Below are positions 7,319 to 60,124 of a DNA stretch of 64,000 nt, one piece after another. The position numbers and the translations under genes were made by a program. Source of the DNA: Siphonodentalium dalli (taxonomy: Eukaryota; Mollusca; Scaphopoda; Gadilida; Siphonodentaliidae); contig CP136064.1 in the NCBI GenBank assembly GCA_032622095.1, positions 131,385,129 to 131,449,128 on the forward strand, written 5' to 3'. The stretch's first letter is position 1. Every line of letters begins with the position of its first letter. The notes beneath the pieces were generated by a model, which made no database searches, was not told where the DNA came from, and was given only the letters and a program-made list of their open reading frames with translations.

Positions 7319-7587
7319 TCACAATTCCTCTATCACAACACACTCAGTGTGTGACTCAACATGTAGTCCTCCTTCCGTTACACTCTGCCGTTCATCATAA
7401 AACATCACCATTTTCATTTGCTTTTTGAATTCTTCAGGAACTTGAAACATAGGACCATGCCCAGGGACAATGTAGTCTGCTATATTGAGAACACTGAAAC
7501 GATTCTGCTGCTGTACTTCTGGATTCTCACTATTGTCCTGCCATATGTCTGGCTCGTCTAGATCTTCTGCCTTCTCGAACAAATCGC
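7319..7587 (-). CDS. MBLAC1: MBLAC1-like gene, terminal coding exon
   Basis: Acceptor TTCCAG lies at 7593-7588. The exon starts in phase 1 with GC, completing a Gly codon from the previous exon. It encodes GDLFEKAEDLDEPDIW, then a conserved ADYIVPGHGPMF segment, and ends in VVIEEL before TGA (7321-7319). In the MBLAC1 family this part holds the GD strand (Asp ligand) and the VPGHGP motif with the last metal-ligand His. MBLAC1 in vertebrates is reported as a histone pre-mRNA nuclease; that role is family knowledge and not shown here. The charged tail after the VPGHGP region is longer than I would expect and may be lineage-specific. The exon is intact. Confidence 0.9.
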
Positions 7588-9428: not shown

Positions 9429-10660
9429 AACAAGAGGTGGCATCAGAGATGCTGTGTCTCGTTTTCGGTGGCTTACCGCCGGTGGCTACCGCCAATTGGT
9501 GTGCATCAGTATCGGTAGACTAATAGGTAAAATCGAAAAATGACTAATTAAGGGCCATAACTCCATCAAATTTAATCGGACCAGGCCGGTTTTCGAACTC
9601 GTCCGAGATATTCTTGGGAGACACCTATATACCAAATTTCAATCAAATCGGATAACGTTTGTTGAAGTTATCGCGCTAACGAGCTGAAAATTCGTGAAAA
9701 ATGACTAATTAAGGGCCATAACTCTATCAAATTTTATCGGACCAGGCCGGTTTTCGAACTCATCCGAGATATTCTTGGGAGACACCTATATACCAAATTT
9801 CAATCAAATCGGATAACGTTTGTTGAAGTTATCGCGCTAACGAGCTGAAAATTCGTGAAAAATGACTAATTAAGGGCCATAACTCTATCAAATTTTATCG
9901 GACCAGGCCGGTTTTCGAACTCATCCGAGATATTCTTGGGAGACACCTATATACCAAATTTCAATCAAATCGGATAACGTTTGTTGAAGTTATCGCGCTA
10001 ACGAGCTGAAAATTCGTGAAAAATGACTAATTAAGGGCCATAACTCTATCAAATTTTATCGGACGAGGCCGGTTTTCGAACTCATTCGAGAAATTCTTGG
10101 GAGACACCTATATACCAAATTTCAATCAAATCGGATAACGTTTGTTGAAGTTATCGCGCTAACGAGCTGAAAATTCGTGAAAAATGACTAATTAGGGGCC
10201 ATAACTATATCAAATTTTATCGGACGAGGCCGGTTTTCGAACTCATCCGAGATATTATTGGGAGACACCTATATACCAAATTTCAATCAAATCGGATAAC
10301 GTTTGTTGAAGTTATCGCGCTAACGAGCTGAAAATTCGTGAAAAATGACTAATTAAGGGCCATAACTCTATCAAATTTTATCGGACCAGGCCGGTTTTCA
10401 AACTCATCTGAGATATTCTTGGGAGACACCTATATACCAAATTTCAATCAAATCGGATAACGTTTGTTGAAGTTATCGCGCTAACGAGCTGAAAATTAAA
10501 AGGGCCATAACTCTGTAATAAATGTGCGGACGAACCCGATTTTTTGTCTGCAGCTTACGTGCATGGATATGTACTCACACACCAAAATTTTAATCCGTCA
10601 ATAAACGGTTGAGTTATAAGCCGCCCGCCCGCCCGTCCGCCGCCCGCCCGCCCACCGTCC
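9429..10660 (+). repeat. Type D element with six 161-bp monomers
   Basis: The leader is AACAAGA followed by the hairpin GCATCAGAGATGC. The core is a minisatellite whose TGACTAATTAAGGGCC block falls at 9541, 9702, 9863, 10024, 10185 and 10346, a period of exactly 161 bp each time. Each unit also contains TATCGGACCAGGCCGG and TATACCAAATTTCAATC. Copies differ at only a few positions, so it is a young or homogenised array. The array stops at ~10495 and is followed by a degenerate unit and a CCCGCCCGCCCGTCCG tract (10621-10660), equivalent to the GGACGG tract of the other families. Confidence 0.85.
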
Positions 10661-17809: not shown

Positions 17810-18741
17810 AATGTCCATGACACTGTAGTTCAACTTTGCGAAGAAGTTAAATTTTTGTGCTGAGCAATGAATGGAATGATGAATTGAATTTTGAAATCCA
17901 AGATGTCCACTGGCAGCCATGTTTTTCAGCCAAATGAACCCAAAATGACTCGTTCCCATCTACATGTCAATATCAACAGCCATGACACATTTCATAATGA
18001 TCTGACCAAAGGTACGACTTGTAGCCTGTGCCAAAGGATTAAGTCATGCAAACAGTAAAATCCAAGATGGCTGTGGACAGCCATGTTTTATGGCCGAATG
18101 ACCCCAAAATGACTCATTCCCATCTACATGTCAATGTCAACAGCCATGACAAATTTCATAATGATCCAACAAAAGGTACAACTAGTCACCCGTGCCAAAC
18201 GATTTAGTCACGCAAAGAGCAAAATCCAAGATGGCTGCCAGTGGCCATGTTTTATGGCATAATGACCCCCAAAATGACTCGTTCCAATCTACAAGTCAAT
18301 GTTAACATCCCTGACGAATTTCATGATGATCCAACCAAAGGTACAACCTCCAGACCGTGCCAAAGGATTTAGTCATGCAAAGAGTAAAATCCAAGATGGC
18401 TGCTGGCCGCCATGTTTTATATCCGAATGACTCCAAAATAACTCGTTCCCATCTAGATGTCAATATTAACATCCACGACATATTTCATGATGATCAGACA
18501 AACACTCCGGCCTGTAGCCGTGCTAATGGATTGCATTTTGAAATCCAAGATGGCCACGGCAGCCATGTTTTTTGGCCGAATGATCCCATGCCAAAGGATT
18601 TAGTCATGCAAAGAGTAAAATCCAAGATGGCTGCTAATGGAAATTGTTGACGGACATCTCCACACACACACATTCTAGCACACATGGAAGACGATACCAA
18701 GTTTGGCAACAGCTCAAACTTTACAAGTAAAGTAGAGCTAA
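17810..18741 (+). mobile_element. Type A element with both ends present
   Basis: The 5' leader is CCATGACACTGTAGTTCAAC. Five to six ~161-bp monomers follow, each with CCAAGATGGC, CCATGTTTT, CCGAATGACCCCAAAATGAC and CATCTACATGTCAAT blocks. The 3' end near 18710-18741 is the hairpin AGCTCAAACTTTAC ... GTAAAGTAGAGCTAA. It lacks a long GGACGG tract but has GTTGACGGACATC and a CACACACACA run. It is located in an MBLAC1-like intron. Confidence 0.75.
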
Positions 18742-19199: not shown

Positions 19200-19314
19200 C
19201 TGTTATGACAATGGTTCCATTCGGTGTGTTACGAACGACAACCGATACATCTGATGCTGTATGACCAGGTGTGGGAATAACCTCAATGTTCTCATCTATC
19301 TCGTATGGTATTCC
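19200..19314 (-). CDS. MBLAC1: MBLAC1-like gene, penultimate exon
   Basis: A pyrimidine-rich acceptor ends CACACAG, the exon starts in phase 0 with GGAATACC, and it ends after 38 codons plus one base (ACAG then GTCAGC donor). It encodes GIPYEIDENIEVIPTPGHTA and SDVSVVV, then NGTIVITG. PTPGHTASDVSVVV is the family's TPGH strand with a metal-ligand His followed by the conserved DVSVVV. The 115-nt exon is intact. Its phase-0 start matches the phase-0 end of either alternative upstream exon, and its 1-base overhang matches the GC start of the last exon. Confidence 0.9.
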
Positions 19315-28295: not shown

Positions 28296-28459
28296 CTGCT
28301 TGAATTCGTGGGAGACATATAGATCTCCAATACATATATCAAAGCCATAGACATGGATCGAGTTAGTAAATAAGTTAGAATTTCCAGTGTGGTCAGAATG
28401 TCCATGTGTGCACACAACATATTCTATATTCTCTGGGGTCAGGTTATTTTTGGCCAGGC
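28296..28459 (-). CDS. MBLAC1: MBLAC1-like gene, alternative exon 3b (zinc-binding version)
   Basis: Acceptor TTCCTGTTGCAG, then a phase-1 start (GC completes Gly), then 54 codons ending at CAG before donor GTATAATC. Length is 164 nt. It encodes LAKNNLTPENIEYVVCTHGH, then SDHTGNSNLF and ends VSHEFKQ. THGHSDH is the metallo-beta-lactamase HxHxDH metal-binding motif, and the sequence matches the MBLAC1 family GTHGHSDHIGN region. This is the catalytically competent choice of a duplicated exon pair; its partner lies 5.2 kb upstream in the gene at 33841-33678. Confidence 0.92.
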
Positions 28460-29162
28460 CTGCAACAGGAAACAAATAGTTAGTTGAGTTAATTAAAGGT
28501 GATTAGTTTATTGGGGGGAACTAGGTTACCACTCACAACACTTTCAGAAACTTAGCTTGATGAAATTATTTTTGATTTTTCAATATAAACAATGTCTGAC
28601 TTTATCAATCCCGGAATACCACTAACAGTTTAAAAAAAATCAATTTCAGAGAGCAGAAAGAAGAATTGTTGATAAACTATGCAACTTTTTAAGGAGTATG
28701 TTGTTGTAATTGGTAACACCAAGCACAGAAATCATATCAGTAGTGTGAATATATTGCAATTGTTAAGCAAACATCTGAAATTAAGAGCAAATTCGAACTT
28801 ATAAAGTCAGAGAAAGGTCTGATTTCAATATATTTTGATGGGAATCATCTGCCCTAATTGAACAATGTTATAATTCCATATGATAAAATATCTGGGTCAA
28901 TAGAAGATTGGTTTCAAAATAGAGAAATTAATTTGTTCATAGATTTACATGGAAAATGAGAACATATTTGAATGATCTAATCCTGACATTTATCTCTTTC
29001 AACACAAAACACCTTCATCATCTTACAAGTGTTTCTTATGAATATTTATTACCACATCAATAGCCCACTGGTCAAGACCAAACATGGAGTATACAGATAA
29101 AATGCCAGAAGTGTCGCTACAGTTTAATTCTCGAAACAAGGAAATTCAGGAGACTTCTCTAT
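28460..29162. other. Unannotated intron sequence between the two alternative exons
   Basis: No repeat family or further exon was recognised in this part of the 5.2-kb interval between the duplicated exons. Confidence 0.4.
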
Positions 29163-29880
29163 GGGAGGTTAAATATTTGTGCTTAAGTGCAAATAACCTC
29201 TATCATTTGCGCTTAAGCGCAAATCATTTGCGCTTAAGCACAAATCAAAATTAATATGCATTATCCCCCTGAATTAATTTTAAATGGCACAAGCCTAAAC
29301 ACAAAACAACGTATATATAGGCCCACCATATGACGGAATTAGCAATCCACCAGTAACCCCAATATCCCTTTTGTGACCATGGAAATGGTATAGATCTGTG
29401 CAGGATATGTCTCTTTTATAAAATAATATACTAGATCTCTGGGATGGAGACACAAATTCTTGGGGACAGGGATGCTGATAATATGAAAATATGGGTTTTT
29501 CCCCTATTTCAAGTCAATAAGTACACCATATGAGGGAAGCAAGCCCCTAGTAACCACTAATTCCCAATTTATGGTCATGGAAATGGTATATATCTGTGCA
29601 GGAGATGTCCCTTTAATAAAATATACTAGTGCTCTGGGAGTGAGGCATCAATTCTTGGGACACCAGGGACAGAGATGCTGATATGCATATTTAAATATGT
29701 TTTTTCTTCAACTTTAGAGCCTGTATGGGGCTACTACTATGGGCCCATGATAATATACTATGAGATGGACTCAATCATTCACAATCAGAGGGAAGTATTA
29801 AAGGGAGTGTTAGGTATTTGCGTTTAAGCGCAAATAAATAATAAATGTGAAAATGATTTGCGCTTAAGGTAAGGTTTTAC
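29163..29880. repeat. Element bounded by TTTGCGCTTAAGCGCAAA palindromes
   Basis: Palindromes of this 18-bp type occur several times: a variant with TTGTGCTTAAGTGCAA at ~29175, a perfect copy at ~29206-29223, a variant at ~29225-29245, one with GCGTTTAAGCGC at ~29818-29835 and a half copy at ~29858. Between them lie two diverged ~200-bp direct repeats, each with ATGGAAATGGTATA and CTGTGCAGGA(T/G)ATGTC (29379 and 29577). It may be a fold-back or TIR element whose ends are clustered palindromes. Confidence 0.5.
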
Positions 29881-30630
29881 ATAGAAGATAATGGTGCAGG
29901 TTAAACAATTCTACAGTAATGCTGTCGGAGTGAAGGATGGAAAAGAGGGAGAACCAATTTCAATGAAAATATTTTTGTTGATGATTTCCATCAAATTTAT
30001 ATACAAAAAGTTATCTCCATGATATGGGGAATCTTATAATGTGATTCAAAGATACCCTATGAGTCAGGGATGGGGGTTGGTGAGGAACATCAAAATTAAT
30101 AAAAAAAAACAATTTGTCAACAATTTCTACCAAACTTAAAATTAGTCATGTCCATATGACAGTATAGTAAGAGAATATTACAGTATGGTAAAATATTCCA
30201 AAGTGGCACCATCCATGTCATTTCCTCCAAACTTATAGTCATCTCCATTGTACAGGAAATCTATGGTACAATTCAACATGGCAAAAGTCATACCATTGGA
30301 GTCTGGGATGGGGGTTGAGGGAGGAGCACCAAAATCGGATAAAAATATGTGTCACAGATATCATTCAAACATATATAGATATCTCCATGATATAAGATAC
30401 CTACTGGTGCAGCTTAAATTCTCTGAAGTGGCACAATTCAGGTCAGGAGATGGGGGAACTAACACAATTGAGAAAACCATGGATTTTCCTACAAACTTAT
30501 AAAGTTCCCAAAATAGTGCTGTTCATGTAAGGAATGAATGTCATGTAAGGGGCACCAACAATGCTAAAACAAGTTTCCTAGTTTACCAAACTTATCTATA
30601 TAATCATATCCGTGAGTGACATATCATATA
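29881..30630 (+). repeat. Degenerate tandem repeat
   Basis: Units contain variants of a CATCTCCATGATATA block, a TATGGTACAATT/GGTGCAGCTTAAA block, a CAAAGTGGCACCA block and a GGGATGGGGGTTG block. They are spaced roughly 130-170 bp apart and strongly diverged. No element ends could be assigned. Confidence 0.45.
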
Positions 30631-30637
30631 AACTATA

Positions 30638-31955
30638 TGAAAGTGTCATGAAACTGTAGCTCAACTTGGAAAGGGAATAATTTAATGTATTACAGTCAAT
30701 GGAGCGATTAGGAATGTGGAAGGTTGAATATCTAATACTAGTTTATAGACATGACGAGAAAAGTAAAATCCAAGATGGCTGCTGGCGGCCATGTTTTCGG
30801 CCGAATGACCCCAAAATGAGTCGTTCCCATCTACATGTCATCGTTAACATCAATGACAAATTTTATGACGATCAGACTAAAGGTAATACCTGTAGCCCAT
30901 GCTAAATAATTTAGTCATACAAAGAGTAAAATCCAAGATGGCTGCTGGCGGCCATGTTTTTTGGCCGAATGACCCCAAAATGACTCGTTTCCCATCTACA
31001 TGTCATTATTAACATTCATGACAAATTTTATGATGATCAGACTAAAGGTACGACATGTAGCACGTGCTAAAGAATTTAGTCATACAAAGAGTAAAATCCA
31101 AGATGGCTGCTGGCGGCCATGTTTTTTGCCCGAATGACCCCAAAATGACTCGTTCACATCTACATGTCATTATTAACATTCATGACAAATTTCATGATGA
31201 TCAGACGAACAGTACGACCTGTGGGCCGTGCTAATGGATTAAATTTTGAAATCGAAGATGGCAGCTGGCGGCCATGTTTTTTGTCCGAATGACCCCAAAA
31301 TGAGTCGTTCCCATCTACATGTCATCGTTAACATCAATGACAAATTTTATGACGATCAGACTAAAGGTAATACCTGTAGCCCATGCTAAATAATTTAGTC
31401 ATACAAAGAGTAAAATCCAAGATGGCTGCTGGCGGCCATGTTTTTTGGCCGAATGACCCCAAAATGACTCGTTTCCCATCTACATGTCATTATTAACATT
31501 CATGACAAATTTTATGATGATCAGACTAAAGGTACGACCTGTAGCCCGTGCTAAAGGATTTAGTCATACAAAGAGTAAAATCCAAGATGGCTGCTGGTGG
31601 CCATGTTTTTTGGCCGAATGACCCCAAAATGACTCGCTCCCATCTACATGTCATTATTAACATTCTTGACAAATTTTATGATGATCAGACTAAAAGTACG
31701 ACCTGTAGCCCGTGCTAAAGAATTTAGTCATACAAAGAGTAAAATCCAAGATGGCTGCTGGCGGCCATGTTTTTGGGCCGAATGACCCCAAAATTACTCG
31801 TTCCCATCTACATGTCAATATTAACATCCATGACAAATTTCATGATGATCAGACAAACATTACGGCCTGTAGCCCGTGCTAATGGATTGAATTTTGAAAT
31901 CCAAGATGGCCACTGGCGGCCATGTTTATTTCCCGAATTTTCATGTATAGTATAA
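30638..31955 (+). mobile_element. Type A (Pearl-like) element, array of 8 monomers
   Basis: The 5' leader TGAAAGTGTCATGAAACTGT and TAGCTCAACTTGG is followed by GTCAATGGAGCGATTAGGAA. Eight monomers follow. The GGCCATG block falls at 30787, 30949, 31114, 31269, 31434, 31599, 31763 and 31918, a mean period of ~161.6 bp. Each monomer carries CCAAGATGGCTGCTGGCGGC and CGAATGACCCCAAAATGA. No 3' hairpin is present; the array stops in the last monomer at ~31945. The structure matches bivalve Pearl-type elements. Confidence 0.85.
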
Positions 31956-32555
31956 TACAGGCCTGAAGATTTCAGTTCGCCTGGAGGTTACCTAAAGCTA
32001 AAATGCCGCGAACGAAAAAACACCTACATTGTGCCAAAGTTTTCAAAGTGTGCCAAAGGTCTCACGATCATGTATTTTCACCTTCATTATTGCTCAATCT
32101 AGTCCCAAGATGAGATATTCAAAATTATTGTTCAATGATTTGCTCATTAGTAATTAATAATACAGTGATGTGATTATATGTGCATAAACTCTTCTGTTAA
32201 CCTAAGCACTAAGTTTGTGCCACAAACCTGGTGACAAAAAATTGATTACTCATAATTTTAAGCTCTGCAGGCCTGTGTATATATTAACCGATAGAAAACC
32301 CTGCTAGTAAAAATATGTTGCTAATTCCATTAATATTGTGAGATATTCATTGTTATGACGGCTTCATAAGTCCCTTCTCCTTATTTCATTCTCTAAGAAG
32401 AAGCCTCTATTCAAAATAGTTTTTTTTTACAAGGAAACTGATCATTTATTAATAGGTATCCTGACATTTCCATCACCCATGTGAGTGGACATTTCCCCAC
32501 CTGGTGACTTAAAAAAACAAGGGTTGCGCATCAAAGATGGTTTGTTGATATTGTT
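31956..32555. other. Unannotated intron sequence
   Basis: No repeat family or exon was recognised. Confidence 0.4.
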
Positions 32556-32965
32556 GTGAAAGGTACACATAACAAATATGAATGTAATTGGTTGATGTTT
32601 GTTCAAGTTATCACGCTAATAGACATAACATTTCCTAAAATTGCTAAAAGTAGACTAACTATTGAGTGCCGTAACTCAGGTAAAAAGGATCAGACAAATC
32701 TGGTTTTGGAACTTGTTCTAGATATTGTTGTAAAAGATCCATACGCCAGCATACCAAATATGAATGCAATTGGTTGACATTTGTTCAAGTTGTCGCGCTA
32801 ACGGACATAACATTTACTAAAATTTCTAAAAATAGACAGACAGTAACTCAGGTAAAAAAAATTTGAACAAACCTGGTTGTCGAACTCGATCATGATATTA
32901 CTGTGACAGGTTGATACATGTATACCAAATATGAATGAGATTGGTTGACGTTTGTTCAAGTTAAA
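32556..32965 (+). repeat. Type D-like degenerate tandem repeat
   Basis: Three diverged units share CAAATATGAATGYAATTGG and GTTGAYRTTTGTTCAAGTT blocks at about 32574, 32754 and 32927, followed by CGCGCTAAYGGACATAAC. The wording of the unit (TTATCRCGCTAA, CCAAATATGAATGCAATTGG) is a diverged relative of the 161-bp type D monomer at 9541-10500. The period here is nearer 175 bp. Confidence 0.55.
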
Positions 32966-33677
32966 ATGCTAGCAGATATATAACGGGAAAACATCTGGTG
33001 GGTCGACACCTGGCGGGTATACGTCAGGTGGGTAATTGTCAGTATTACTATTAATCTATTGTCTGCTATACGTCAGTACTGAGTACGGATGTAAAATGTT
33101 ATGCTGTGTGCTATATGTCCGTATTGACATTTCATCACACTATCTGTCACCCATTTATTCATATAAACTAGAACTCAGAGATTGGTGCATTGGAACAACT
33201 ATATCTCAAAGTTTCATGTATGGTGTTCCACGATTGTGAAGGATAATAGCCTTTCAATTGATTCAGTTTTATGGTTTTCGTGATATTCAGTTATATTTTT
33301 CCACTGGAAAATGCCATAATGTCGATGACCCAGCACACGACGTCATAACATTAGCATTGAAAAGGTTAAAGTAATACTTCTATCTGAGCCAGTATATATG
33401 GCACATGAGTGTGGAAATGTTTGGTATTCACCAAATTATTCAGACACTTGTCACTACAAATCTTACTTGATTAATCATGCAAACATCATACAATACTAAC
33501 TTTGACCCAAGTCAGTAACTAACCAAAACCAAGCCTTCACAGAGGCCAGTAATCCACATATACTACGTTAGTACAAAGCTCATAACTTTTAACAAATTGT
33601 TACTGTCTCTCACAACGACTAAAGAACAAACACCAAACAACAAAAGACAATGGAACATTTCAGGCTTGACATTGTAC
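32966..33677. other. Unannotated intron sequence
   Basis: Apart from short GGTGGGTCGACACCTGGCGG-like repeats near 32998-33030, nothing was recognised. Confidence 0.4.
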
Positions 33678-33841
33678 CTGTTTGAAATCATGTAGGATAT
33701 AGCTGTGTCCATTGTAGATTTGATTTGACACCACATGGATTGATCCAGTAAACAGGTTAAGATTTCCCACCTTGTCAGAGTTTCCACTTGTACAGACAAC
33801 ATACTTTATGTCATCAGCGATTAAACCATAATCCAATAGTC
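33678..33841 (-). CDS. MBLAC1: MBLAC1-like gene, alternative exon 3a (metal-ligand-less version)
   Basis: Acceptor CACTTCTCAG, phase-1 start (GA completes Gly), 54 codons ending at CAG before donor GTACAATG. Length is 164 nt, identical to exon 3b. It encodes LLDYGLIADDIKYVVCTSGN, then SDKVGNLNLF and ends ILHDFKQ. By eye, 28 of 54 residues match exon 3b without gaps. YVVCT, GN.NLFT, SIHV and FKQ are kept, but THGHSDH has become TSGNSDK: all three histidine ligands are lost and only the Asp remains. The frame is open and both splice sites are intact, so it looks functional and not decayed. Confidence 0.85.
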
Positions 33842-36892: not shown

Positions 36893-39800
36893 TGAAAGTG
36901 TCAATGACACTGTAGCTCAACTTGGAAAGGGAATAATTTAATATATTACAGTCAATGGAGCGATTAGGAATGTGGAAAGTTGAATGTCTAATACTAGTTT
37001 ATAGACATGAAGAGAAAAGTAAAATCCAAGATGGCTGCTGGCGGCCATGTTTTCGGCCGAATGACCCCAAAATGAGTCGTTCCCATCTACATGTCATCGT
37101 TAACATCAATGACAAATTTTATGACGATCAGACTCAAGGTACGACCTGTGGCCCATGCTAATGGATTAAATTTTGAAATCCAAGATGGCCACTGGCGGCC
37201 ATGTTTTTTGTCCGAATGACCCCAAAATGACTTGTTCCCATTTACATTCCAATTTCAACAGCCATGAAAAATTTTATGATGATCAGACTAAAGGTACGAC
37301 CTGTAGCCCATGGTAAAGGATTTAGTCATACAAAGAGTAAAATCCAAGTTGGCTGCTGGCGGCCATGTTTTTTGGCCGAATGACCCTAAAATTACTCGTT
37401 CCCATCTACATGTCATTGTTAACATCCATGACAAATTTTATGATGATCAGACTAAAGGTACGACCTGCAGCCCGTGCTAAAGAATTTAGTCATGCAAAGA
37501 GTAAAATCCAAGATGGCTGCTGGCGGCCATGTTTTTTGGCCAAATGACCCCAAAATGACTCGTTCCCATCTACATGTGATTATTAACATTCATGACAAAT
37601 TTTATGATGATCAGACTAAAAGTAGGACCTGTAGCCCGTGCTAAAGGATTTAGTCATGCAAAGAGTAAAATCCAAGACGGCTGCTGGCGGCCATGTTTTT
37701 TGGCCGAATGACCCCAAAATGACTCGTTCCCATCTACATGTCAATATTAACATCCATGACAAATTTCATGATGATCAGACGAACAGTACGACATGTGGCC
37801 CGTGCTAATGGATTAAATTTTGAAATCCAAGATGGCTGCTGGCGGCCATGTTTTTTGTCCGAATAACCCCAAAATGACTCGTTCCCATCTACATTCCAAT
37901 TTCAACAGCCATGACAAATTTTATGATGATCAGACTAAATGTACGATCTGTAGCCCGTGCTAAAGAATTTAGTCATACAAAGAGTAAAATCCAAGATGGC
38001 TGCTGGCGGCCATGTTTTTTGGCTGAATGTCCCCAAAATTACTCGTTCCTATCTACATGTCAATATCAACAGCCATGACAAATTTTATGATGATCAGACT
38101 AAAGGTACGACCTGTAGCCCGTGCTAAAGGATTTAGTCATACAAAGAGTAAAATCCAAGATGGCTGCTGGCGGCCATGTTTTTTGGCCAAATGACCCCAA
38201 AATGACTCGTTCCCATCTACATGTGATTATTAACATTCATGACAAATTTTATGATGATCAGACTAAAGGTACGACCTGTAGCCCGTGCTAAAGGATTTAG
38301 TCATACAAAGAGTAAAATCAAAGATGGCTGCTGGTGGCCATGTTTTTGAGCCAAATGACCCCAAAATGACTCGTTCCCATCTACATGTCAATATTAACAT
38401 CCATGACAAATTTCATGATGATCAGACAAACAGTACGACCTGTGGCCCGTGCTAATGGATTAAATTTTGAAATCAAAGATGGCCGCTGGCGGCCATGTTT
38501 TTTGTCCGAATGACCCCAAAATGACTCGTTCCCATCTACATTCCAATATCAACAGCCATGACAAATTTTATGATGATCAGACTAAAGGTACGGCCTGTAG
38601 CCCATGGTAAAGGATTTAGTCATACAAAGAGTAAAATCCAAGTTGGCTGCTGGCGGCCATGTTTTTTGGCCAAATGACCCCAAAATGACTCGTTCCCATC
38701 TACATGTCATTATTAACATTCATGAAATTTTTTATGATGATCAGACTAAAGGTACGACCTGTAGCCCGTGCTAAAGAATTTAGTCATACAAAGAGTAAAA
38801 TCCAAGATGGCTGCTGGCGGCCATGTTTTTCGCCAAATGACCCCAAAATTACTCGTTCCCATCTACATGTCAATATTAACATCCATGACAAATTTCATGA
38901 TGATCAGACGAACAGTACGACATGTGGCCCGTGCTAATGGATTAAATTTTGAAATCCAAGATGGCTGCTGGCGGCCATGTTTTTTGTCCGAATGACCCCA
39001 AAATGACTCGTTCCCATCTACATTCCAATTTCAACAGCCATGACAAATTTTATGATGATCAGACTAAATGTACGACCTGTAGCCCGTGCTAAAGGATTTA
39101 GTCATACAAAGAGTAAAATCCAAGATGGCTGCTGACGACCATGTTTTTTGGCCGAATGACCCCAAAATTACTCGTTCCCATCTACATGTCATTGTTAACA
39201 TCCATGACAAATTTTATGATGATCAGACTAAAGGTACGACCTGCAGCCCGTGCTAAAGAATTTAGTCATACAAAGAGTAAAATCCAAGATGGCTGCTGGC
39301 GGCCATGTTTTTTGGCCGAATGTCCCCAAAATTACTCGTTCCCATCTACATGTCAATATCAACAGCCATGACAAATTTTATGATGATCAGACTAAAGGTA
39401 CGACCTGTAGCCCGTGCTAAAGGATTTAGTCATACAAAGAGTAAAATCCAAGATGGCTGCTGGCGGCCATGTTTTTTGGCCAAATGACCCCAAAATGACT
39501 CGTTCCCATCTACATGTGATTATTAACATTCATGACAAATTTTATGATGATCAGACTAAAAGTAGGACCTGTAGCCCGTGCTAAAGGATTTAGTCATGCA
39601 AAGAGTAAAATCCAAGACGGCTGCTGGCGTCCATGTTTTTTGGCCGAATGACCCCAAAATTACTCGTTCCCATCTACATGTCAATATTAACATCCATGAC
39701 AAATTTCATGATGATCAGACGAACAGTACGGCCTGTAGCCCGTGCTAATGGATTGAATTTTGAAAACAAAGATGGCCACTGGCGGCCATGTTTTTTTCCT

Positions 39801-39987
39801 AATGACCCCAAAATGAATCATTCCGGTACAAATGTTGATGTCAACAGCTATGACAAATTTCATAATGATCCGATCAAAGGTACGACCTGTAGCCTCTATT
39901 GTTGACGCCTTACGCACACACACACACGGACGACGGACGACAAAGCCATGGCAATAGCTCAAACTTTACAAAGTAAAGTTGAGCTAA
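36893..39987 (+). mobile_element. Type A (Pearl-like) element, complete, 18 monomers
   Basis: The 5' leader TGAAAGTGTCAATGACACTG contains the perfect palindrome GTGTCAATGACAC and is followed by TAGCTCAACTTGG. Eighteen monomers follow, with GGCCATG (or variant) positions running from 37043 to 39784, a mean period of 161.2 bp. The array closes with CACACACACACGGACGACGG and the hairpin AGCTCAAACTTTAC AAA GTAAAGTTGAGCT, ending CTAA at 39984-39987. The leader segment TAGCTCAACTT and the ending AAGTTGAGCTA are inverse copies (subterminal inverted repeats). Short open frames reading MFFGRMTPKLLVPIYMS in many monomers are repeat artefacts. Confidence 0.9.
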
Positions 39988-43520: not shown

Positions 43521-43619
43521 CTTGCTCTATGAGGTTCTTGTCCCAAGGGTTCCCAGTGTCCACCAGAACAGTGTGTGGACCTTTGATCAAGGTTATGCTT
43601 CCACATGCTTTTTGACGTC
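43521..43619 (-). CDS. MBLAC1: MBLAC1-like gene, exon 2 (first exon found)
   Basis: Acceptor TATTTACAG, a phase-2-type start (GA completes the previous codon), 32 codons plus one G, then donor GTGAGATA. It encodes RQKACGSITLIKGPHTVLVD and TGNPWDKNLIEQ. LIKGPHTVLVDTGNPW matches the early beta-strand and VDTG turn of MBLAC1 and other metallo-beta-lactamase-fold proteins. The N-terminal exon with the start codon must lie upstream on the minus strand (higher coordinates); I could not identify it in the remaining 20 kb. The single overhanging G fits both alternative exon 3 copies, giving Gly. Confidence 0.88.
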
Positions 43620-47734: not shown

Positions 47735-47745
47735 TGGTAGCAGAG
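47735..47745 (+). other. Primer-binding site, initiator-Met tRNA type
   Basis: TGGTAGCAGAG directly follows the LTR end. It is complementary to the last 11 bases (with CCA) of eukaryotic initiator methionine tRNA, the usual primer class for copia elements. Confidence 0.75.
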
Positions 47746-47797
47746 CGAGGTTCCATCAATAAACAATTCGGTTTGTGAATTTCGAAATAAACAGAAA

Positions 47798-48055
47798 ATG
47801 GCAACGAGAAATTATAAAACACCACCGATGTTTTCGGAATCGAAGCCCTATAATCGTTGGATAGATGAACTACATGTAAATGTATGGGTGATTATAACAG
47901 AATTAGCACCAGAAAAGCAGGCGGCGGCGATTGCGTTATCATTACCGGAAAATAGAGGTGGAATTCGTGACAAAGTGTTCAGTGAGTTGACTGTTCGTGA
48001 ATTAAGTGACAAAGAGGGTTTCAAAAAGTTGATAACTTTCATGGATAAAATTTAT
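47798..48055 (+). pseudogene. gag: copia gag, N-terminal fragment
   Basis: The start codon (MATRNYKTPPMFSE) lies 52 bases after the primer-binding site. The frame runs 86 codons through SKPYNRWIDELHV, a copia gag opening, and LPENRGG to MDKIY, where a type B element interrupts it. It resumes at 51434 with KDELSSAYETYTDFDRY. Gag forms the particle shell of the element. The fragment itself has no stop or frameshift. Confidence 0.85.
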
Positions 48056-48746
48056 AACAAGACAGTCAATGACTGTGGAGACGCTCACCAAACTGTTAAG
48101 ACTAGGAAGACTGGGACTCGGAAGACCATAAGAGTTAGTACTTGTCATATTCACTTAAAAACAAGTAGTCCTAAAGAGGGACATAGCCTAGAGGGTCTCC
48201 GTTTAGCAGTGGGGTGTCCACCTTGAAATATGGTCCAGATCCCCCCACCCCACATAGTCCATAGTCTGCTCCCTCTCAACTGAAGCAAACAAACTCCCAA
48301 GTTTGTAAAATTCCTTTGCACATGTTGGAATATTACAACTGACACTTCAAGCTTTCCTAACTGTGGCAAAGTTACAACCTGACATGCTCCCCTTTTTTAA
48401 TGGTGGACCCCATTCAAACGAATTTTGATCCCAACTCTCCATAGGCCATTTACACCAAATGCCATTTCTTGATTGGTCGAACCCATTTTAACAAATCTGT
48501 AACCCAGTCCCAAGTAACACAAGGACCCTCCATACTGGTTACTACATATAGGCTAAATAGGACTGATGGCTCTTGAGGGGCGCCATTTTAAGAATTACTT
48601 TGGGGGAAGAGTATATGTCCATGGTCGCACCCCTATTTGACCTGGTGAACCCATTTCAACAAATCTGAACCCAGTCACCCAATGACTCTCTATACCAAAA
48701 TGTATACCAAATATGCCAAATGGTCCTTGAGAAGATGTTTTAAAAA

Positions 48747-49659
48747 TGAAAGTGTCAACTTGGAAAGGGAATAATTTCATGTGTTAAAGTCAATGGAGTG
48801 ATTAGGAATGTGGAAAGTTGAAAGGCCTAGTTATGCAAAGAGTAAAATCTAAGATGGCTGCTGGCAGCCATGTTTTTTTGCCGAATGACCCCAAAATAAC
48901 TAATATATATACGTAACAAAATGCGACACAAACAACTTTGATATTAAAGCAGCTGTTTTTTTTAAACAAAGAGTATAACATTGAACACACACATGTAAAT
49001 GGAATGTCTCACTTAGAAATTCATTTTGGTATAAAATCCTTGATTTGTGACCTTCACACTGGGAGCCCACAGCTCCTGCTAAATCCGTCAGAAATATCAT
49101 AATCACCCAGTGCGCAACAGCGACGCTCGTGTGCGTTTACGGCGAGAGAATACAGGCAGTTACATGCTTCATTTCACACACTGGTGAGGCAGTTACAGGC
49201 TTCATTTCATACACTGGCGAGGCAGTTACAGGCTTCATTTCACACGCTGGTGAGGCAGTTACAGGCTTCATTACACACACTGGTGAGGCAGACAGGCTTC
49301 ATTACACACACTGGTGAGGCAGAATTATTCCCATCTACATGTCATTGTTAACATCCGTAACAAATTTCATGAAGATCTGACCAAAGATACGACCGATAGC
49401 CTGTGTCAAAGGATTTAGTCATGCAAAGAGTAAAATCCAAGATGGCTGCTGGCGGCCATGTTATTTTGCCGAATGACCCCAAAATGACTCGTTCCCATCT
49501 ACATGTTAATGTCAACATTCATGACAAATTTCATAAAGATCAGACCAAAGGTATGACCTGTAGCCCACGGGAAAGGAAATTGTTGACGGACACATGCACA
49601 CAAGGACGACGGACGCTAATCCATGGCAATAGCTCAAACTTACAAATAAGTTGAGCTAA
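48747..49659 (+). mobile_element. Type A element nested in type B copy 2
   Basis: Runs from TGAAAGTGTCAACTTGG to the hairpin AGCTCAAACTTACAAA and TAAGTTGAGCTAA. Copy 1 at 25486-25505 reads TTTTAAAAATAACTGATG uninterrupted, so the empty site is known. The insertion falls between A and T, with no duplicated target if the element ends in CTAA. It contains a 33-bp minisatellite and about two monomers. Confidence 0.85.
49154..49322 (+). repeat. 33-bp minisatellite, five copies
   Basis: The unit GGCAGTTACAGGCTTCATTT followed by CACACACTGGTGA repeats about five times; the fifth unit lacks GTTA. It sits in the middle of the nested type A element and is not present in other type A copies here. Confidence 0.85.
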
Positions 49660-50844
49660 TAACTGATGAGGGAAAGAATTATGTCATTGGCTCTGACCAA
49701 TTCTGAATCAAATCTGAATCCTAGTCACCCATACCAAATATAAGCTGAATAGTTCTTATGGTTCTTGATGGGAAGACATTTTAAGAATTACAATGGATGG
49801 ACAAGTTACGTCCCTGGCTCTGCCCTTATTTGACCAGGTGACCTCATTTTAACACATCTGTATCCCCGTCACCCAAAAACTTTCCATACCAATTATAAGC
49901 TAAATAGCCCCGATGATTCTTGAGAAGTTTTAAGAATTACTATAGATGGAAAGAGTCCCTAGCTATGCCATTTTTTGACCATGTGACCCCCATTTGAACA
50001 GAACTGAATCCTCCACACAAAATATGTCTCAATTCTTCATCTCAGGTAAGCTAAGAAAATGCCTCCATCTTTCTCATCCAGTTTCCCATATGTAATCGCC
50101 TGAGAAAACAGGTATTTAGTTTTACTGGCCTAACTGTCAGGTTCATCATTCACACTTGGCCTTGGGAGTGGAGTTGTTATCATAAGCAGGGTCATTTATA
50201 TACAAACTCTCTAACAGGCAGAGAAATTTAGGCTATTAATCAAAGCTGTCATTCCAAACAGATTTTGTTAACACTGCCATTTCATTTATTACTTTATAAT
50301 CAATGTGACTTCTATATGGTTTAAGCATGTTCTTGATTTTAGACTGATTTAAACCAAATTTGGTTGAGTCACCCTGGTGGATGTTATAATGGTGTTATTT
50401 TTTTTTTAAATTGAGCCTGATTGAGCAAGAAATTAATCTCAATTAAAATAAAAAAATTAATTTGAAAAAATAATAAAAAATTTGGGGGTTTTTTGTTTTG
50501 TTTTGTTTTGTTCAATGTAAAATGTTTTTTTTTTTAAGAGTTGTGTCCCTGGCCCCGCCCACATTTGACCCTTACTGAACAAATCTGAACCCCAGTCACC
50601 CAAGGATCCTTCATACCAAATATGAACCCATTTGGCCTTATGGTATTTGAGAAGATGTTTAAAAGAATTACTATGGAGGGAAAGAGTTATGGCCCTGGCT
50701 TCGCAACTATTTGACCCAGTGACCTCATTTGAACAAATCTGAATGTGAGTAACCTAGGGAACATCCACACCAAATATGAACTCATTCGGTCCATTGGTTC
50801 CAGAGGAGAAGATGTTCAAAGAATTGTTGACGGACGGACGGACG

Positions 50845-51339
50845 AACAAATGGGTAGATATGTGGCTCCGACCTATGTGGCTAGAAATGGTAATGTGGCT
50901 TTAGTTTTTATGTGGCTTCTCAAGTAGCCATAAAATTTTATGTGGCTATCAAGTAGTAGATAGTGATAAAACTCCAGATTATGGATTCATAACATGTTGG
51001 AATTATAGCAGAAGAAGCTGATTAAAACTCAAAAACTTGCACTCAGCAACTGGGACAGTGGAATAGGAGAAACTGACAGGTCCGTGATTGGGTGGCTAGC
51101 CGCATAAATGTCAGTCAGTGTCCGACATCTCCTATTGACGGGTCATGGATGTCTAAATCGATGGACTTTTTGTTTCCAAATTTTGAGTGACTACAAAATT
51201 AAATAAGCTGATTAGGCCAAATAGATCATTTTTGAACGTCCATCTGAAAGCTGTTACGTGGCTAGCCACGCAACGGAAGTTATGCACATAAATATCCATT
51301 TCACACACTCTTAGCCACATAAGTAGTCATTAGTAAACA
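50845..51339. mobile_element. ~495-bp insert in the GACGG tract of type B copy 2
   Basis: Copy 1 has an uninterrupted GACGGACGGACGACGGACG tract at 27445-27470. Here the tract is split by ~495 bp rich in ATGTGGCT. The left part has TATGTGGCTCCGACC and TATGTGGCTAGAAATGG; the right part has TTAGCCACATAAGTAG, so the motif is inverted at the two ends. Origin is unknown. Confidence 0.6.
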
Positions 51340-51433
51340 CGGACGGACGGCTCGACGGACGGACGGATGGACGGACAACGGACGAGGAGTGATGACTATA
51401 GCTCCACCGGAGACTTCGTCTCAGGTGAGCTAA

Positions 51434-51818
51434 AAAGGATGAACTGTCATCTGCATATGAGACATACACAGATTTTGATCGTTACAAAAAGACACAAAAA
51501 TTTGACATGGATCATTACATCATGGATTTTGAGAAGAGGTATAATAAGAAACTTCGACAATCAGTTCTGGCTTTTAAGCTTTTGGATGGAACTTGTTTAG
51601 AACACAAAGACCGGCAACTTGTTCTTACTGCTGTAAATTATGAGGACTCTGATTCATTATTCAGACAGATGAGTGTAGCTTTAAGGAAATTCTTCGGAAA
51701 ACAATCTATGACAGCTAATGAAAATAAAGATAGAAATATATCTATCAAAGTGGAACCAGATGATTCTGAAGCGTATGTTGCATTTCGGTATGGTGATAAG
51801 AGGACGTGGACAATATGA
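51434..51818 (+). pseudogene. gag: copia gag, continuation
   Basis: The frame resumes with KDELSSAYETYTDFDRYKK and runs through MDHYIMDFEKRYNKKL, then KVEPDDSEAYVAFRYGDKR to a stop at 51816. The pol part that should follow is in the +1 frame from about 51799. This can be a single-base indel or a frameshift site; decay is more likely given other lesions. Confidence 0.8.
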
Positions 51819-53388
51819 CAGAAATAGAGGATTTTCTCGGGGTCATGGAGGTCAAGCACCGGATAGACCTGGAGGGTTTCAACGAGGTCGTGGAGGTCAA
51901 AATTTGGATAGACCTGGAGGAAGGAATAGACGGCGGACTAATCCTATATCTTCTGATGGGAGGCCAATGAGGTGTGTAATCTGTGAGAGTATTCTGCATT
52001 TCGCCGCAGGATGTCCACATTCTTACGAGAACATGGAGAAAAGGACATACTTTTGTAATTCCGAAATTCAACAAGATGCAGAAGCTGTACTATTTACAGG
52101 AAATGTAGTAGAAGAAATGCAAGTTCTGGTAAATGAGACAATTTGTTGTGCTGTTCTTGACATCGCTTGTAGCTCAACAGTCGCAGGAAAACTGTGGATG
52201 GAATGTTTTCTGGATTCATTAACACCAGAGAATTTAGCAAAAGTGCAACGAGAGGAGAGCTCAACTGTTTTCAGATTTGTTGGTGGAACAAGACTTGAAT
52301 CAAGAGGGAAAGTAACTTTTCCGTGTGAATTAGCCGGAGTTCGAAGCACAATAACAACGGACGTTGTTGATAGTGACAATCCACTTTTGTTAGGAAAACC
52401 ATCTATGAAGAAAGCAGGAATTGTTTTGGACTTGGTGAATGATCGTGCACATATTTTTGACAAATATGTTGACTTACAATTAACATCTGCAGGACATAAT
52501 TGTATTCCACTCTTTCAAACTGAGGTTACCATTCAGGAGACATGCATGGTTGACATTTTCAAGGACAAAGTTTCTTTAAACGAGATGCAGCATGTGATCA
52601 CCAAATTACATAAACAATTTGCTCATCCTTCTAGTGAACGTCTTAAAGTTCTTTTGAGAGATGCCAATATGAGAGATAAGAGGTGTCTTGAAATCGTGGA
52701 TAAGGTGACTGAAAACTGTGATATATGCAAACGATATCGGAAAACTTCAAGTCGTCCAGTTGTGTGTGTACCAATTTCTAAAAATTTCAATTATGTGGTT
52801 GTGATGGATCTTAAGGAATGGGATAAAAATAAAGGTATTTACTTCCTTCACATCATTGATATGGCAACTCGATTCTCTTTGGCATCAGTTATCTACAGCA
52901 AGAAACAAGAAGTTATTATAGACAATGTGATGAAAATGTGGATCGATGGAGGTTTTGGTACTCCACAGAAAATTCTCACAGACAACGGAGGTGAATTTGC
53001 ATGTTCAAAGGTGAGAGACATGGCTGAAAATTTGAATATAGAAGTGATGAATACTGCTGCTAATTCGCCATGGCAGAATGGACTTTGTGAAAGAAACAAT
53101 GCGGTAGTTGATGGCAGTGTCAAGAAAATTCTATCGGATCAACCTGATATGGATCTGGAGACTGCTCTTATTTGGGCAATAAATGCTAAAAACTCTCTGC
53201 AGATGGTTTATGGTTATAGCCCATATCAGTTAGTGTTCAGATGCAATCCAAATCTACCTTCAATACTGGTTGACAGACCACCAGCATTAAAAGGTTCGAC
53301 ACAAACTGAAATATTCGCAAAACATTTAAATGCTTTGCACAGCGCGCGCCAAGCGTTCATCGGAGCAGAAGCATCTGAAAAAATCTGA
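51799..53388 (+). CDS. pol: copia zinc knuckle, protease and integrase (open 5' pol part)
   Basis: This is the largest open frame of the window (556 codons open from 51718; homologous sequence starts about 51799). In order (numbers from 51718): an RG-rich stretch (about 28-70), a CCHC zinc knuckle C86-C89-H94-C99, an aspartic-protease-like LDIACSSTVAG at 147-157 in which the usual D(T/S)(A/G) reads DIA, a zinc-binding HX4H/CX2C segment, and the integrase core with D364, D422 and E458, i.e. D-X57-D-X35-E. The last two lie in ILTDNGGEF and NGLCERNN. The frame ends in a TGA (53386-53388) inside a conserved region, likely a mutated Arg codon. Confidence 0.9.
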   Translation, partial: RGRGQYDRNRGFSRGHGGQAPDRPGGFQRGRGGQNLDRPGGRNRRRTNPISSDGRPMRCVICESILHFAAGCPHSYENMEKRTYFCNSEIQQDAEAVLFTGNVVEEMQVLVNETICCAVLDIACSSTVAGKLWMECFLDSLTPENLAKVQREESSTVFRFVGGTRLESRGKVTFPCELAGVRSTITTDVVDSDNPLLLGKPSMKKAGIVLDLVNDRAHIFDKYVDLQLTSAGHNCIPLFQTEVTIQETCMVDIFKDKVSLNEMQHVITKLHKQFAHPSSERLKVLLRDANMRDKRCLEIVDKVTENCDICKRYRKTSSRPVVCVPISKNFNYVVVMDLKEWDKNKGIYFLHIIDMATRFSLASVIYSKKQEVIIDNVMKMWIDGGFGTPQKILTDNGGEFACSKVRDMAENLNIEVMNTAANSPWQNGLCERNNAVVDGSVKKILSDQPDMDLETALIWAINAKNSLQMVYGYSPYQLVFRCNPNLPSILVDRPPALKGSTQTEIFAKHLNALHSARQAFIGAEASEKI

Positions 53389-53735
53389 AGAGCACTCAGG
53401 CATCAGGTTCGGCCTAGTGGAGATCGATATGAAATTGGCGATATGAAATTGATTCTGAACAAAACTTGCCATCAGAAAATGCAAATGTCCGAAATGAGTT
53501 CAAGCTTCCAAAATTGGGACAATCTATTCGTTTTGTGCGAAAAGGAGATGATGAATGGTGTTATGTTGACATAGTGAGTCGTGGTGGTAAAGTTGGTGGA
53601 AAATATGCAGAATGGCTAAATGTTAAGGAACATGGAGATAAGCCTGTAAGAGCTATTGATTTTCGAAATGGAGTGGACAAGTGGGAATTATACGAAGAAA
53701 GTGAAGAATCGAGGGAAGAAAGTACTATAAACTGA
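53389..53735 (+). pseudogene. pol: copia linker between integrase and RT
   Basis: Coding similarity continues after the nonsense codon (RALRHQVRPSGDRYEIGD). It then shifts frame near a small duplication of GATATGAAATTG (53427-53452) and goes on as PKLGQSIRFVRKGDDEWCYV to a stop at 53733. It is part of the polyprotein that joins integrase to RT and carries two lesions. Confidence 0.75.
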
Positions 53736-58962: not shown

Positions 58963-60124
58963 CAGGGGCGTAGCAAGCAAATTTTATTGGGGGGGTATAA
59001 CCATTCATCGTGAAGCACTGACCGGACGCCGATGGCGTCGGTGGGGGAGAGCACGAGAGGGGGTCGCCCCCCTCTCGATGGGGAGTTCTGACATTGGAAG
59101 CTTAAAGTGGCTCTCTGGTGGCTTCTGACCCATCTGACATTGTTTTCCCACACACTACATTATCATAGATTAGATCAACATTCTTATCATTTATCAATTG
59201 TAATTTCATAAAATGGTAGGCCGATTGAAAGTGTAATGAACAAATAGGTATATGGGAATTCATGTTGTGTTATTATCTAGTCATTAATGATGTGAAATTA
59301 CTCCCATAACTGGGATAAGATATTCAGAAAGTAAATATGACACAAACAACCATGAGAAAGTAGACTACATGGATACACACATCACCATGGGTATGTATCG
59401 TGGGGTATTTATCGTGTGGGTATGAATAGTGTGGGTATGTATCGTGGGTATGTATAGTGGGTATGTATAGTGGGTATGTATCATGGGGGTATGTATCGTG
59501 GGTATGTATAGTGGGGGTATGTATAGCGTGGTTATGTATAGTGGTGGTATGTATTGTGTGAGTATGTATAGTGTGGGTATGTATAGTGTGGGTATGTATA
59601 GTGTGGGTATGTATAATGTGGGTATGTATAGTGTGGGTATGTATAGCGTGGGTATGTATAGTGGTGGAATATATTGTGTGGGTATGTATCGTGTGGGTAT
59701 GTATAGTGTGGGTATGTATAGTGTGGCTATGTATAGTGTGGGTATGTATAAAGTGGGTATGTATAGTGTGGGTATGTATAGCGTGGGTATGTATAGTGGT
59801 GGTATATATTGTGTGGGTATGTATAGTGTGGGTATGTATAGTGTGGCTATGTATAGTGTGGGTATGTATAATGTGGGTATGCATAGTGTGGGTATGTATA
59901 GTGTTGATATGTATAGTATGGGTATGTATCGTTTGGGTATGTATAGTGTGGGTATGTATCATGGAGGTATGTATGGTGTGGGTATGTATCGTGGGGGTGT
60001 GCATTGCCGTGATCGTCGGCGATACTTCATTAGTTTGCCAAATATTTTTACTAACCTTTGGAAAATATTGGGGGGATAAATACCCCCCTTGCCCCCCCCC
60101 CCCCCCCCGGTTCCTACGCCCCTG
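58963..60124. mobile_element. hAT-like non-autonomous element, 1,162 bp
   Basis: It starts CAGGGGCGTAGCAA and ends TTCCTACGCCCCTG, short inverted repeats of hAT type. An 8-bp duplication CTTAAAAT lies on both sides (58955-58962, 60125-60132). Removing element plus one copy restores the RT reading frame (GKDTLK into IFIGLASS). The interior is a 15-bp minisatellite and G/C runs, with no transposase. Confidence 0.92.
59400..60000 (+). repeat. 15-bp minisatellite, about 40 units
   Basis: The unit TATGTATAGTGTGGG repeats with minor changes through the hAT-like element. Because 15 is divisible by three and the unit lacks stop codons, long artificial frames appear on both strands (VGMYS and IHTHT periodic peptides). 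These are not genes. Confidence 0.95.

Follow-up and report, generated by a model that had tools for sequence, protein, structure and literature searches.

The MBLAC1 gene of the scaphopod mollusc Siphonodentalium dalli appears to encode two forms of a metallo-beta-lactamase (MBL) fold protein, which differ by the choice of a single exon. The gene was analyzed in a stretch of 64,000 nucleotides (nt) of contig CP136064.1 (assembly GCA_032622095.1; C4:131385129-131449128 in the coordinates used here), termed the window. The third coding position of the gene is occupied by two homologous exons, one with a complete metal ligand motif (exon 3b) and the other with most of these ligands replaced (exon 3a). 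Probably, exon 3 is an old tandem duplicate that is spliced one-or-the-other, with 3b giving the enzyme and 3a a regulated off-state isoform.

The gene has five coding exon positions on the minus strand, and exons 2-5 are inside the window. A first-pass annotation of this DNA had given the positions of 3a and 3b, and these stand; the first coding exon is outside the window, where that annotation could not see it. The features are listed below, with positions counted within the window unless they are preceded by C4.

C4:131455595-131455649, minus strand: first coding exon (MMNEVIVLKEGYSISDGP), 6.5 kb beyond the window, also recovered there by a genome search with the whole protein
43521..43619, minus strand: exon 2, with the LVDTGNPW motif and a phase 1 donor common to 3a and 3b
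33678..33841, minus strand: exon 3a (LLDYGLIADDIKYVVCTSGNSDKVGNLNLFTGSIHVVSNQIYNGHSYILHDFKQ), alternative exon with metal ligands replaced
33771..33791, minus strand: TSGNSDK motif of exon 3a, with S, N, D, K at ligand positions 116/118/120/121
28460..33677, minus strand: intron between 3a and 3b, 5,218 nt, containing a 164-nt satellite array at 30762-31882
28296..28459, minus strand: exon 3b (LAKNNLTPENIEYVVCTHGHSDHTGNSNLFTNSIHVYGFDICIGDLYVSHEFKQ), alternative exon with the complete ligand motif
28389..28409, minus strand: THGHSDH motif of exon 3b (H116, H118, D120, H121)
19200..19314, minus strand: exon 4, with a phase 0 acceptor and ligand H196 (PGH codon 19261-19263)
7319..7587, minus strand: exon 5, with D221 (7583-7585, GDLF), H263 (7457-7459, PGHG) and the stop codon

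Exons 3a and 3b are each 164 nt long, are entered in phase 1 and left in phase 0, and contain 54 whole residues. Both are open solely in the frame that continues from exon 2. Aligned without gaps, they share 28 of 54 residues and, at the nucleotide level, 97 of 164 positions. The first-pass annotation had reported these coordinates, the equal length and phase, GT-AG sites and a gapless identity of about 52%, all of which is borne out. Agreement at codon positions 1, 2 and 3 is 31, 40 and 25 of 54 bases, a pattern that is indicative of protein-coding constraint. In a search of the whole genome (2.23 Gb in 9 contigs) with 3a, exon 3b was matched at E = 1.6e-9 and the other four matches were at E = 0.076 to 5.9; thus the match between 3a and 3b is not due to chance. 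One of the four (L006) was the only one inspected and is by eye a reverse-transcriptase-type sequence, not an MBL gene; the remaining three are at E 1.8 to 5.9.

Both exons display an AG acceptor and a GT donor. Inclusion of 3a alone or of 3b alone yields a 233-residue protein. As 164 is not a multiple of 3, inclusion of both leads to an early stop whose end is 143 nt short of the next exon junction, and with neither exon a stop lies 92 nt upstream of it. A full protein is therefore formed only when one of the two is included. Early stops from double inclusion or skipping are expected to trigger nonsense-mediated decay. A simple weight matrix, based on general metazoan splice-site frequencies, was used to score splice sites as percentiles among the AG or GT sites in the locus. 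Among AG sites, the acceptor of 3a reaches percentile 98.8 and that of 3b percentile 100.0; the other three acceptors of the gene are at 97.7 to 99.7. The introns around the pair are 9,679, 5,218 and 8,981 nt, and since these are too long, steric exclusion is an unlikely mechanism.

Papers are cited here by PMC number and for particular passages. Mutually exclusive homologous exons are described as neighbouring and homologous, about equal in length and of the same phase, with intact splice sites (PMC3228551). Exons 3a and 3b agree with this in homology, length, phase and splice sites, and inclusion of both or neither destroys the product. The structure supports a mutually exclusive pair, as the first-pass annotation had proposed on finding the two exons.

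Among relatives of solved structure, human MBLAC1 (PDB 4V0H) is the best match to both isoforms, with 137.3 bits for the 3b isoform (next 34.1) and 129.5 bits for the 3a isoform (next 24.4). This supports the assignment of the locus as an MBLAC1 gene, in accordance with the MBLAC1-like identity suggested earlier. The metal ligands of the human protein are H116, H118, D120, H121, H196, D221 and H263 (PMC6303110, cited passages). All seven align in the 3b isoform: exon 3b provides the first four, exon 4 H196, and exon 5 D221 and H263. At positions 116/118/120/121, 3b and five relatives (described below) have H, H, D, H (CAT, CAT, GAC, CAC in 3b) whereas 3a has S, N, D, K (AGT, AAC, GAC, AAG), and both motifs read as they did in the first-pass annotation. 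The 3a isoform still has four of the seven: D120 (exon 3a), H196 (exon 4), and D221 and H263 (exon 5). Because of these four, one metal could still bind the 3a isoform, which the first-pass annotation had called zinc-less and catalytically dead. The 3b isoform matches the Pfam family Lactamase_B (PF00753) with 67.2 bits (cut-off 22.7). The NCBIfam collection gave no match above its curated cut-off for the 3a isoform, nor among the 25 matches listed for the 3b isoform. We regard the 3a isoform as a predicted product of the MBLAC1 gene and do not file it as an active member.

Metallo-beta-lactamases of the B1 and B2 types hold a metal at the D120/C221/H263 site, B2 enzymes work with one metal, and position 121 is K in NDM-1. 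Because of this site and of K121 in NDM-1, a single-metal enzyme is a serious rival, even if an unlikely one. In this alternative 3a would be a real mutually exclusive exon and its product still a metalloenzyme, in which D120, D221 and H263 would bind a single metal, with H196 near and K121 beside it; activity or substrate would be changed, not absent. The retention of D120, H196, D221 and H263 from the human ligand list (PMC6303110) is in agreement with this, as is coq-2, where the cited passages describe an exon choice that changes the substrate without removing activity (PMC7434440). Against it, two of the four ligands of the first metal (H116, H118) and one ligand of the second (H121) are lost together. 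In addition, the passages cited (PMC6303110) describe human MBLAC1 as working with two metals, and report that replacement of H196, D221 and H263 abolished its activity.

Conservation of 3a was examined with relatives from a scan of 84,980 prokaryote genomes, which gave 67 pattern matches and 18 relatives. Three of these (L019, L020 and L021; 45 to 52% identical) were used and 15 at 23 to 42% were excluded. A further relative, L040, came from 395 sampled genomes of the phylum to which L019 belongs, and human MBLAC1 makes five; in the other two phyla, 291 and 396 genomes were covered and yielded none beyond the starting genomes. Over the 50 non-ligand positions of exon 3, identities of 3a/3b are 28/24 (L019), 28/26 (L020), 23/24 (L021), 23/21 (L040) and 19/17 (human), and relative-rate counts show no difference between 3a and 3b (p 0.34 to 1.0). 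Among the non-ligand positions invariant in the five relatives, 3a retains 13 of 15 and 3b 12 of 15. Ligand positions differ: 3a retains 1 of 4 and 3b 4 of 4 (Fisher p = 0.037, or 0.014 under a 4-of-5 rule, a test based on four ligand positions). Three family residues, G at exon residue 5, D at 10 and V at 37, are kept by 3a and changed in 3b, and one invariant A is lost in both. With 13/15 non-ligand and 1/4 ligand residues, exon 3a displays what is expected of a pseudoenzyme, i.e. loss of catalytic residues with conservation of fold residues.

Decay without constraint was simulated with 3b in place of the ancestor and with the base composition of introns, and was followed at the 14 residues of a four-relative invariant set that are present in 3b. 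Pairwise synonymous divergence (dS) of 3a and 3b is 1.9 (NG86), 1.2 (LWL85) or 2.9 (maximum likelihood), so the branch length is uncertain; among 11 four-fold codons common to both exons 7 are the same, suggesting a lower dS. Because of this uncertainty, branches as short as 0.25 substitutions per site were included in the simulation. At that length, at least 13 of 14 residues are kept in 0.7% of runs (P = 0.007, for residue retention before demanding no stop and no indel), and 27% of runs are stop-free. At 0.5, 0.62 and 0.96 substitutions per site, none of 20,000 runs keeps 13. The ratio of nonsynonymous to synonymous divergence (dN/dS) is 0.18 to 0.32 by three methods, with dS uncertain. Simple decay of 3a was rejected as the main explanation from the five-relative comparison and the simulation. 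Since its non-ligand conservation equals that of 3b and the ligands are disproportionately lost, 3a is evidently not a decaying copy of 3b; it looks like an exon maintained for an MBLAC1 without the normal two-metal site. The first-pass annotation had argued that structural residues were conserved and the ligands alone lost. The argument against simple decay holds (13/15 and 12/15, and the simulation); the claim that nothing else was lost does not, as residue 40 of exon 3, a non-ligand D that is invariant in the five relatives, has become Q in 3a.

These results bear on whether 3a might be the dead remnant of an ancient duplication of the exon, no longer spliced into mRNA. We consider this improbable: the weak donor of 3a (90.7 percentile) and the loss of three ligands would fit such a relic, but the open frame, exact length, phase and splice sites are kept, non-ligand conservation equals that of 3b, neutral decay is rejected at the simulated branch lengths, and dN/dS is low at 0.18 to 0.32, uncertain as dS is. 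Least probable is a poison or regulatory exon, in which joint inclusion with 3b, or the choice itself, mainly lowers MBLAC1 output by nonsense-mediated decay and the 3a protein does little: the stop 143 nt before the next junction upon double inclusion agrees with it, but a poison exon needs no conserved protein sequence, the reading frame of 3a is intact with its fold residues kept to the same degree as in 3b, and inclusion of 3a alone leaves the frame open over the full length.

In the favoured explanation, the tandem-duplicate exon pair, the switch would be at splicing, as exons 2 and 4 lie on either side of the pair with phases that fit each copy. Choice of 3b would give an ordinary two-metal MBL-fold enzyme. 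Choice of 3a would give a protein of the same length (233 residues) in which the fold is expected to be kept, H116, H118 and H121 are S, N and K, and the normal two-metal site is gone. Products of double inclusion or double skipping would be removed by nonsense-mediated decay. The likeliest function is a regulated off-state, in which the non-catalytic 3a isoform sets the amount of active MBLAC1 per cell; it may still bind partners or substrate. The existence of both transcripts, and the stability, inactivity and role of the 3a protein, are what we infer from the genomic sequence. The loss of activity in a human MBLAC1 variant with other ligands replaced speaks for this explanation. In human MBLAC1 the active site adjoins the dimer interface (PMC6303110, cited passages). 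As the ligand-substituted human protein is mainly monomeric, 3a may be a weak dimer partner, and an off-state or competitor is favoured over a dominant-negative dimer.

Several observations weigh against a regulated off-state isoform. G is absent at +5 from the donors of both 3a and 3b, whose percentiles among GT sites are 90.7 and 91.3, while the other three donors of the gene rank higher (96.6 to 99.9); similar, modest donors would suit a regulated pair and would equally fit a rarely used exon. Pairing between introns shows no clear docking signal: the longest exact pairings are 12, 13 and 15 nt, and the maxima in shuffled sequences are 12-16, 12-14 and 12-14 (10 shuffles each). The 15-nt pairing, between introns 2 and 4, exceeds its ten shuffles (12-14), but it is AT-rich and the next matches include repeat-family sequence. 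The PF00753 score drops to 41.5 bits for the 3a isoform. This drop is expected if the motif is the strongest part of the profile; nevertheless, on its own, exon 3a matches nothing in Pfam at E <= 10, compared to 30.9 bits to PF00753 for exon 3b alone, and 3a is not recognisable as an MBL exon from Pfam alone. The D to Q change in 3a, the four positions on which the Fisher test is based, and the examination of the locus in one genome count on the same side, and the monomeric state of the ligand-substituted human protein (PMC6303110, cited passages) weakens a dominant-negative dimer model.

The search with the whole protein gave, among the best-scored candidates, six matches genome-wide at E <= 0.5, each of them one of the gene's own six exons. 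A duplicate of exons 1, 2, 4 or 5 was not found in 154 kb around the gene (best non-self match E = 0.18), nor genome-wide at E <= 0.5 among the best-scored candidates. The MBLAC1 gene seems to be single-copy as far as searched. A tandem duplication of the whole gene or of several exons was rejected, as these searches found no second exon 1, 2, 4 or 5. Upstream of the start codon in the first coding exon (C4:131455650 and beyond) is an acceptor-like stretch, ctttcttgcag; because it is a good one, there may be a further non-coding exon upstream.

Three known cases can be compared. In Drosophila CRMP/dihydropyrimidinase, exon choice swaps a zinc-binding histidine for glycine, and the isoform without zinc is deduced by the authors to be less active (PMC7954323, cited passages). 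The likeness is that of homologous alternative exons in one gene with a zinc ligand lost in one copy. The differences are another fold and enzyme, one ligand named in the cited passages as opposed to three of four in one motif in MBLAC1 3a, and fly exons that are known splice isoforms, whereas splicing of 3a and 3b is deduced from sequence. Also in Drosophila, mutually exclusive exons of CG42249, a likely nucleotidase, alter key catalytic residues (PMC7954323, cited passages). This is another enzyme family, and the effect on activity is predicted there as it is for MBLAC1 3a. In helminths, annelids and molluscs, choice of coq-2 exon 6a or 6e switches substrate, for ubiquinone or rhodoquinone synthesis (PMC7434440, cited passages). 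Same-length alternative exons remodel an enzyme core in invertebrate lineages in that case as well; it is a substrate switch, with no loss of a metal ligand.

An exon pair of the latter type was found in S. dalli. A gene at C1:89063000-89082999, presumably COQ2 (a label taken from its match to the UbiA family), has exons L052 (8072-8202) and L053 (1606-1739), read here as 131 and 134 nt, that are 44% identical over 41 residues (E = 1.4e-9). This appears to be the published coq-2 6e/6a mutually exclusive pair, and if so it would imply rhodoquinone synthesis in the animal. The pair is consistent with a mollusc, whereas a search for the haemocyanin beta-sandwich family matched neither this genome nor any of the control genomes and so carries no information on the phylum.

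Among MBL-fold proteins, INTS11/INTS9 are an enzyme and a likely pseudoenzyme partner. The INTS11/INTS9 and CPSF73/CPSF100 pairs resemble the S. dalli isoforms in that an active MBL-fold protein is found beside a relative without its site; they differ in being separate genes, not one gene with two exons, and in their other domains. CPSF100 is called a likely pseudo-enzyme (PMC6303110, cited passages). The same paper reports on human MBLAC1, the top solved relative of both isoforms and the protein whose seven ligands align with 3b; the word 'isoform' is absent from its main text. A literature search at the title and abstract level, covering few subscription papers, found no report of exon choice for MBLAC1 or the MBL fold, and none pairing mutually exclusive exons with a pseudoenzyme. 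The first-pass annotation had named no precedent for a pseudoenzyme switch by exon choice in this family. The lack of a precedent holds for the MBL fold in the literature searched and does not hold for exon choice generally, as Drosophila CRMP (PMC7954323, cited passages) demonstrates. The kind is already known, i.e. exon choice that alters active-site residues; the MBL fold is what is new, as far as the literature search goes.

Several repeats are present in the window. Satellite arrays with a 164-nt unit are found in MBLAC1 introns at 17894-18495, 30762-31882 and 37018-39894, two of them with a higher-order period of 483-484 nt. A link between this period and the 164-nt exon length was considered and taken as coincidence, as exon 3a and the satellite show chance-level 20-residue matches only (E 0.5 or more). 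The intron between exons 4 and 5 has six copies of a 161-nt repeat (9535-10497), which has recently spread, as the copies are 97% matching. Open frames at 47741-53735 (plus strand), in the intron that separates exon 2 from the first coding exon, resemble by eye a copia-type retroelement; its 558-residue frame (51712-53388) has an integrase-like part by eye. A 15-nt repeat occurs in 41 copies at 59388-59998 and has several open frames on each strand. Searches of the window gave no matches to RNA families and none to tRNAs (the latter with bacterial settings). Close MBLAC1 relatives (45 to 52% identity) are sporadic in bacteria, in 2/395, 1/291 and 1/396 genomes of three phyla with starting genomes counted, which may reflect transfer of the gene between bacteria and animals.

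The physiological substrate of MBLAC1 is debated, with histone pre-mRNA cleavage as one proposal (PMC6303110, cited passages), and SWIP-10, a worm relative, is linked to dopamine-neuron protection (PMC5891035, cited passages). If the proposed exon choice is true, the 3a isoform would be a natural control that differs by one exon and is without the two-metal site, separating catalytic from non-catalytic roles of MBLAC1. A more tentative suggestion is that one MBLAC1 gene makes a two-metal enzyme and a maintained pseudoenzyme partner, and that 3a may adjust MBLAC1 or direct it elsewhere through competition for substrate or partners, perhaps depending on tissue or oxygen state; one gene would then do what CPSF73 and CPSF100 do with two. 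With a 3a isoform as proposed, the metallo-beta-lactamase fold would also join a short list of folds with a metal ligand swap by exon choice.

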